From NCBI RefSeq assembly GCF_001443605.1, contig NZ_CP013118.1:876225-940224 (forward strand): a stretch of DNA of 64,000 nucleotides, given 5' to 3'. Shown one piece after another: positions 32,397 to 32,969 of the stretch (positions are counted from its first letter, which is position 1; each line of letters opens with the position of its first letter). The notes under the pieces were generated by a model. The model was not told the origin of the DNA. It worked only from the letters and a program-made list of their open reading frames with translations, and did not search any database. Source of the DNA: Salinivirga cyanobacteriivorans (lineage in GTDB: Bacteria; Bacteroidota; Bacteroidia; Bacteroidales; Salinivirgaceae). A program made the translations under genes and the position numbers.

Positions 32397-32470
32397 CGGG
32401 GTGTAGCGCAGCCCGGTAGCGCGCTTCGTTCGGGACGAAGAGGTCGTAGGTTCGAATCCTGTCACCCCGA
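32397..32470 (+). tRNA. tRNA-Pro (anticodon CGG)
   Basis: Cloverleaf: acceptor CGGGGTG pairing with CACCCCG, D arm with AGCCCGGTAGC, anticodon stem CTTCG/CGAAG enclosing TTCGGGA (anticodon CGG), T arm GTAGG-TTCGAAT-CCTGT. Discriminator A at 32470; CCA is not encoded (CTA follows). A terminator begins six bases later. The 3' 16 nt are repeated in the tandem array downstream. Confidence 0.97.
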
Positions 32471-32969
32471 CTATTAAACGGATCAATTTGCTGAAAAACA
32501 GATTGATCCGTTTTTTTATTGTGAATACTTTGCACTTTTCCCCCTAACACTAAAATAAAGTAGAGGTCGTAGGTTGTGAACCGACGACTGAAAGGAGGAG
32601 CTCACGAATCACGTTTAGTGATGAGTAATCCTGTCACCCCGACTATTAAACGGATCAATTTGCTGAAAAACAGATTGATCCGTTTTTTTATTGTGAATAC
32701 TTTGCACTTTTCCCCCTAACACTAAAATAAAGTAGAGGTCGTAGGTTGTGAACCGACGACTGAAAGGAGGAGCTCACGAATCACGTTTAGTGATGAGTAA
32801 TCCTGTCACCCCGACTATTAAACGGATCAATTTGCTGAAAAACAGATTGATCCGTTTTTTTATTGTGAATACTTTGCACTTTTCCCCCTAACACTAAAAT
32901 AAAGTAGAGGTCGTAGGTTGTGAACCGACGACTAAAAGGAGGAGCTCACGAATCACGTTTAGTGATGAA
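32458..32969. repeat. 172-bp tandem repeat built from the tRNA-Pro 3' end and its terminator (3 copies)
   Basis: Units start at 32458, 32630 and 32802, exactly 172 bp apart and almost identical (one base differs in the third copy, ACTAAAAGG for ACTGAAAGG). Each starts with the tRNA 3' end (CCTGTCACCCCGA), then the terminator, about 45 bp of spacer, AGAGGTCGTAGGTT (identical to the tRNA variable region and T stem) and a 51-nt insert occupying the place of the T-loop CG. The insert holds two hairpins. The organisation parallels E. coli tyrT, whose downstream repeats give rtT RNA. Confidence 0.93.
32476..32517 (+). terminator. Terminator of tRNA-Pro
   Basis: AAACGGATCAAT pairs with ATTGATCCGTTT, with an inner CTG/CAG step and A-rich loop, then a seven-base T-run. 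Repeated copies occur at about 32648-32689 and 32820-32861, one per 172-bp unit. Confidence 0.9.

Follow-up and report, generated by a model that had tools for sequence, protein, structure and literature searches.

Why is a proline tRNA gene of Salinivirga cyanobacteriivorans followed by tandem copies of its own 3' end, and what is the insert that each repeat carries? The gene lies in a window (the whole stretch of DNA analysed, 64,000 nucleotides) in which an earlier note had recognized three near-identical 172-bp units, each made up of the tRNA-Pro 3' end, a terminator, a tRNA-derived segment and a 51-nt insert at the T-loop position, and had likened the arrangement to the tyrT/rtT locus of E. 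coli. RtT is said to have been described in 1991, in a tRNA operon of E. coli, and to our knowledge its function is still not settled.

The tRNA-Pro(CGG) locus

The 172-nt direct repeats, 100% and 99% identical to the first, bear out this description (Table 1). Each unit starts in the T-loop of the tRNA and closes with the insert. The copied fragment AGAGGTCGTAGGTT is present four times in the window, at 32439, 32562, 32734 and 32906, and unit 3 gives way to unrelated sequence, with no tRNA 3' end. The third insert copy (32920-32970) has two changes, one of which breaks the Y-R pair of the fold set out below. With R2, a model built from 31 rows including the window copy itself, the inserts are matched at 32573-32631 and 32745-32803 (66.8 bits each) and at 32917-32975 (47.7 bits), while at the Rfam gathering scores tRNA is the sole match in the window. 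Since the source genome is a single contig of 4.81 Mb, the third copy differs from the other two and other genomes have such cores in tandem as well, it is unlikely that the array is purely a misassembly; its copy number is given as assembled.

Table 1. Features of the tRNA-Pro(CGG) locus, in positions of the window
Feature	Position	Strand	Evidence
tRNA-Pro(CGG), intact gene	32397..32471	+	ARAGORN; Rfam tRNA 64.4 bits at 32397-32470
Unit 1 (tRNA 3' end shared with gene, terminator, spacer, T-arm fragment, core)	32455..32626	+	172-nt direct repeat, reference copy
Unit 2, 100% identical to unit 1; first extra tRNA 3' end at 32627-32643	32627..32798	+	direct repeat
Unit 3, 99% identical to unit 1; second extra tRNA 3' end at 32799-32815	32799..32970	+	direct repeat
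Terminator stem-loop of unit 1, followed by T-run	32476..32513	+	terminator scan, inverted repeats
Terminator copies in units 2 and 3	32648-32685, 32820-32857	+	terminator scan, inverted repeats
Copied tRNA fragment AGAGGTCGTAGGTT, anticodon-stem end to T-stem	32562..32575; copies 32734-32747, 32906-32919	+	direct repeat
51-nt insert (RtT-like core), at T-loop position	32576..32626; copies 32748-32798, 32920-32970	+	R2 matches
Arm P3, CGACGAC / GGAGGAG, C-G pairs alternating with tandem G·A steps	32582..32600	+	A2 columns 10-16 with 29-35
Arm P4, A-C-GA-ATCAC..GTGAT-GA-G-T, immediately 5' of the copied AATCC	32604..32626	+	A2 columns 39-46 with 59-66

The comparison with E. coli had extended to a small peptide (Tpr), and units 1 and 2 contain 47-aa ORFs with a GTG start. 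This part of the comparison is not supported, since the cores do not preserve a reading frame: the spacing between their conserved blocks is spread over the three frames (20, 15 and 2 of 37 cores), and the frame of the window runs into a stop in 21 of the 37. No ORF of the window matched a GIY-YIG query (one query, E <= 0.001).

Fold of the core

Alignment A2 comprises 31 cores; the second copies in L035 and L075, the L079 copy, the truncated L059 and L069 were left out of it. These cores share two arms. The consensus of P3 is C-GA-S-GA-S..S-GA-S-GA-G (CGASGAS..SGASGAG), with two tandem G·A steps, the interior pairs being either G-C or C-G (17/13 and 14/15), and that of P4 is A-Y-GA-stem-GA-R-U, where the Y-R pair is C-G in 14 cores, U-A in 14 and U-G in three. 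The tandem G·A steps are kept in 31/31 and 29-30/31 cores in P3, and in 29-30/31 in P4; for loci retrieved with a pattern, the columns that it prescribes are no evidence of conservation, but their partners, columns 29-32 and 63-66, were left unconstrained. A GAGCUC-like linker is invariant in most Bacteroidota cores.

Paired cells amount to 89.0%, a value reached by none of 500 shuffles of the 31 cores. The covariation score is 0.624 as against 0.213 (sd 0.025) for shuffled alignments, again reached by none of 500, and versions in which the arms were slid score at most 0.117; two of the five pair measures, which count pairs or pair types, fail to beat the shuffles (119/500 and 183/500). The insert does have a conserved fold. 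These data support a single-stranded fold under selection, with two modelled arms built on tandem G·A steps, and the compensatory changes across genomes indicate that selection acted on it at least in the recent past.

Two hairpins had originally been drawn within the insert. One of them, ATCAC..GTGAT (32608-32622), does lie inside it and forms part of P4. The other, GTCGT..ACGAC, has only its ACGAC half in the insert, the GTCGT half belonging to the tRNA-derived fragment, and the helices that are conserved are P3 and P4. Energy folding of the window copy favours this fragment-insert hairpin, in competition with P3, with a program in which tandem G·A does not count as paired; z values for four example cores range from -1.95 to -5.31. 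Two further structural candidates were rejected. Some left arms show the GAUGA..GAA order of a hammerhead-like ribozyme, but C3/U4 and stem II, as judged by eye, are at odds with one. A general base stem between the left arm and the cognate tRNA end was discarded as well, the means for own versus non-cognate ends being -12.5 versus -11.2 kcal/mol (14 copies) and -11.9 versus -11.5 kcal/mol (22 copies); such a stem is striking only in L078, L074, L039 and L067.

Distribution and tRNA context

Searching for the unit in Bacteroidota, as the earlier note had proposed, led to a catalogue of 37 core copies, of which 34 belong to other Bacteroidota and the remainder to three loci of the genome itself (Pro-CGG, Thr, Pro-TGG). 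The list omits L056, L069, L041, L061 (the same place as L038) and repeats of one place, together with window copy 2, which is identical, and window copy 3, which has no AATCC end. Within the own genome a second core was located at tRNA-Thr(TGT), and a search of relatives gave a core at tRNA-Val in a genome of the same genus. In 295 genomes of the order, a three-sequence model found 13 strong matches, spread over six genomes; the own genome accounts for five, among them tRNA-Pro(TGG); tandem pairs of cores stand behind tRNA-Ser in two other genomes of the order. Thirteen weaker matches in that search (E 0.0006-0.009) look like chance, with the exception of L041, where a recognisable intergenic core (1490-1560) has no tRNA within 600 nt. 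A pattern scan of species genomes returned 25 stretches, 24 of which are Bacteroidota by title, from several orders; the remaining one, L085 (Parafrankia), lacks the context and was set aside as chance. A strict pattern found the core in the own genome only among 395 genomes of the class, and so did a model search of 395 genomes over the phylum, in which 14 candidates were scored per genome, a depth that makes it weak evidence of absence. The core is rare and patchily distributed.

Phage origin was considered and rejected: two pattern scans of viral contigs gave no match each, further scanning gave one E. coli-like RtT fragment, and among the matches listed (20 of 840) the phage BLAST rows cover the tRNA-Pro part of the query.

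A tRNA gene lies on the same strand within 600 nt upstream of the core at 25 of the 37 copies. Whereas the catalogue was same-strand by construction, a count of all orientations placed a tRNA downstream on the same strand at three copies and on the opposite strand upstream at one and downstream at two, with none at ten. Seven of the 12 copies without a same-strand upstream tRNA lie less than 600 nt from the upstream edge of the sequence examined. The upstream tRNAs are Ser (11), Pro (8), Arg (2), Thr, Val, Tyr and Met (1 each), and the core is followed by the last 16 nt of that same tRNA at 21 of the 25 sites with at most two mismatches, and at 23 with at most three. By an automatic test, a terminator-like stem with a T-run stands between tRNA and core at 14/25 sites, and after the core at 20/36. 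No terminator is visible before the core in L039, L074 and L076. Upstream of position 5732 in L082, and near the core in L056, tRNA 3' halves without 5' halves occur just before the core; they look like attachment-site remnants of integrated elements.

Relationship to RtT

The likeness to tyrT/rtT holds beyond the general layout. The RtT repeats of E. coli tyrT are also in tandem, restart at the T-loop AATCC and end in the cognate tRNA 3' end (CCA), like the units of Bacteroidota. Moreover, both groups have the same last arm, Y-GA-stem-GA-R-U, before AUCC: the pattern Y-GA-stem-GA-R-T fits 12 of 13 E. coli copies, many of them near-identical, and 31 of 37 Bacteroidota copies, as against none of the 181 further ATCC sites in the E. 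coli loci, in a test that was framed once both groups had been seen. In the literature searched there was no recognised description of RtT-like elements in Bacteroidota.

Because of the fold, the linkage to tRNA genes, the cognate 3' end and the RtT anatomy with its last arm, we lean, with moderate confidence, towards the view that the units are a Bacteroidota branch of the RtT-like structured RNA elements, of putative expression and function. Where a terminator separates the tRNA from the core, as at those 14 of 25 sites and in every unit of the window, transcription of the core would require read-through; where it is absent (L039, L074, L076), tRNA and core may be co-transcribed. Transcripts that pass the first terminator, or such co-transcripts, would contain the element, which would supply a tRNA-type 3' end that could be trimmed like that of a tRNA, often together with a second terminator. 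A compact structured RNA might then be released by tRNA processing, as rtT reportedly is from tyrT transcripts in E. coli. The only lead on a putative role in trans is the effect on the stringent response that has been reported for E. coli rtT; transcription, processing and any such function are predictions that build on the observed fold and tRNA linkage. The 172-bp array of the window would be a later tandem duplication of one unit.

Common descent of these cores and RtT is likely, as judged from the sequences. Convergence, in which tRNA 3'-end duplications of the two phyla gained unrelated structured inserts with tandem G·A steps, is a tentative alternative to which we grant a substantial minority chance. 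It would account for the failure of R2 and RF00391 to detect each other's members at significant scores: at its gathering score of 45 bits RF00391 matched 0/19 Bacteroidota loci and 0/99 genomes of the order, and R2 gave at most 12.8 bits on E. coli RtT, which is below an antisense tRNA-Val (14.0 bits) and not significant. It is also helped by the origin of GGUUCGA and AAUCC in the tRNA itself, and by the late framing of the last-arm test. Nevertheless, the shared last arm argues against it, as do the four matches of RF00391 in eight Bacteroidota loci, all of which fall on cores (4/11 cores; 22.9-24.6 bits, E 1.1-3 over all families), and the left arm GGAUGAGAA of RtT, whose loose pattern fits a subset of the cores (14/37, the window copy not among them).

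Other tRNA-end copies in the genome

Copies of tRNA ends are frequent in this genome. A copy of its own 3' end (the last 16 nt, at most two mismatches, within 1.5 kb downstream) follows 11 of the 44 tRNA genes, and a copy of its own 5' end precedes five of the 44; when flanks were compared with the 3' end of another isotype, three of 1806 pairings matched. The 3' copies are of several kinds, with an RtT-like core at the window locus, Thr and Pro-TGG, a two-hairpin insert at Met, Asp and Pro-GGG, and a tRNA-like remnant at Asn. In L151 and L152, both tRNA-Arg(CCG), they have a different stem-core with the closing stem GGCGGGAT/ATCCCGCC and the right end GAGTAATCC or GAGCTAATCC.

Two further arrays resemble the 172-bp unit, being tandem and combining the tRNA 3' end, a terminator and an altered tRNA fragment. 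Directly behind tRNA-Leu(TAA), L125 (1072-2614) has units of about 506 bp with a GIY-YIG ORF, which is interrupted by an in-frame stop; directly behind tRNA-Met(CAT), L126 (minus strand, about 1230-2230) has units of about 370 bp, again with a GIY-YIG ORF. They differ from the 172-bp unit, which has no conserved ORF, by this ORF and by another insert. In L107, L108 and L023 (minus strand, near 6388) there is a palindromic family (GGCCATTTCGATTCCCGC..GCGGGAATCGAAACGAAC), which surrounds GIY-YIG ORFs and also adjoins the tRNA-Thr unit.

On the 5' side, copies of the tRNA 5' part stand directly before the intact gene in L136, L138, L148 and L154 (upstream of tRNA-Gly, Ile, Pro(GGG) and Pro(TGG)), each with two hairpins inserted into its D-loop (..GTGAGTCC.CGAAA..); in all, four of the five 5' copies bear such an insert. 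With at most two mismatches the insert string occurs four times in the genome, always beside tRNA genes, and a reversed control string nine times; a dispersed, genome-wide origin of this insert was rejected since all matches adjoin tRNAs, the three with 0 or 1 mismatch being the informative ones given the control. Upstream of the intact tRNA-Val, L127 has a tandem pair of tRNA-Val-like copies (about 1915-2115) in which the anticodon arm is altered and the T-arm truncated.

This variety of tRNA-end copies is the reason for retaining as a strong rival, although we hold it to be less likely than the RNA reading, the idea that the unit is a mobile or hitchhiking DNA element, whose replacement tRNA 3' end and terminator spare the tRNA upon insertion into the T-loop and whose fold acts as single-stranded DNA. 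The unit would be moved in trans, perhaps by the GIY-YIG nucleases of the analogous units or by an integrase. The patchy distribution of the core over several isotypes is in keeping with mobility, as are the analogous units at tRNA-Leu and tRNA-Met and the two terminators flanking the tRNA-Val core in one species, which match different species of the genus; this mismatch is compatible with insertion or recombination, and either state may be the older. Yet no core unit was seen with an intact GIY-YIG ORF of its own, GIY-YIG-like ORFs (one query) turned up only in L097/L102, L075 and L101, of which L075 alone has catalogued cores, the tRNA-Leu ORFs carry their in-frame stop, and no clean, precisely bounded empty site was seen. 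Neutral debris, in which slippage or unequal recombination duplicated a tRNA end together with an old insert under no present selection, would suit the last unit of the window, which lacks a tRNA end and has the broken Y-R pair, but is improbable in view of the compensatory changes.

A wider generalization, speculative and in our estimate unlikely, would be that Bacteroidota tRNA genes are nests of cross-phylum elements that replace loops: the T-loop in the 3'-half copies (G·A-clamped or two-hairpin fold) and the D-loop in the 5'-half copies (two-hairpin). RtT would be the first-described member, the elements would pass from tRNA to tRNA with a right end that needs only the near-universal T-loop sequence, and the GIY-YIG units would be their gene-carrying version. 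That one tRNA gene in four has a copy of its own 3' end in this genome bears in any case on tRNA annotation and on the reading of integration sites.

Comparison with known systems

Integrative elements whose attB sites lie in tRNA genes also duplicate the tRNA 3' end. At 172 bp the unit of the window is different: neither an integrase nor a long element separates the tRNA end from its copy.

Among known families RtT (RF00391) comes nearest. Its places in E. coli (rttR/tyrT, lysTWYZQ, lysV and the argVYZQ flanks) are behind tRNA genes, as in the window. The tyrT repeats score 133-138 bits with RF00391, and the lys flanks 46.7-60; two arg spacers, with 29-31, stay under the cut-off. The Bacteroidota cores are shorter than RtT, have the double-G·A arm P3 and, in most cases, the GAGCUC-like linker, and are found with other isotypes (Ser, Pro, Thr, Val, Tyr, Met, Arg). 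Since they fall below the RF00391 cut-off and R2 is weak on E. coli RtT, they are RtT-like, not members of the family.

Earlier studies give some further characters of RtT. A covariation study noted a tandem GA motif in it (PMC7657543), and Northern signals were obtained for RtT RNAs of Actinobacillus pleuropneumoniae, which the authors place upstream of Asn and Lys tRNA genes (PMC4986893). RtT is listed as a variable tandem repeat of 175 bp in Salmonella (PMC2658671). Some enterobacterial BIMEs resemble rtT (PMC2965389) and rttR is listed as REP-containing (PMC12306157), so that a repeat-element origin of RtT itself is possible.

A likely sister group of RtT in a second phylum, with several isotypes and a defined fold, offers a comparison for tests of function. 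Such a comparison could reveal the invariant parts, any need for a cognate tRNA end and any mobility of the element. The anatomy of E. coli lysQ, with the order tRNA, terminator, RtT, tRNA end, terminator, is that of the window.
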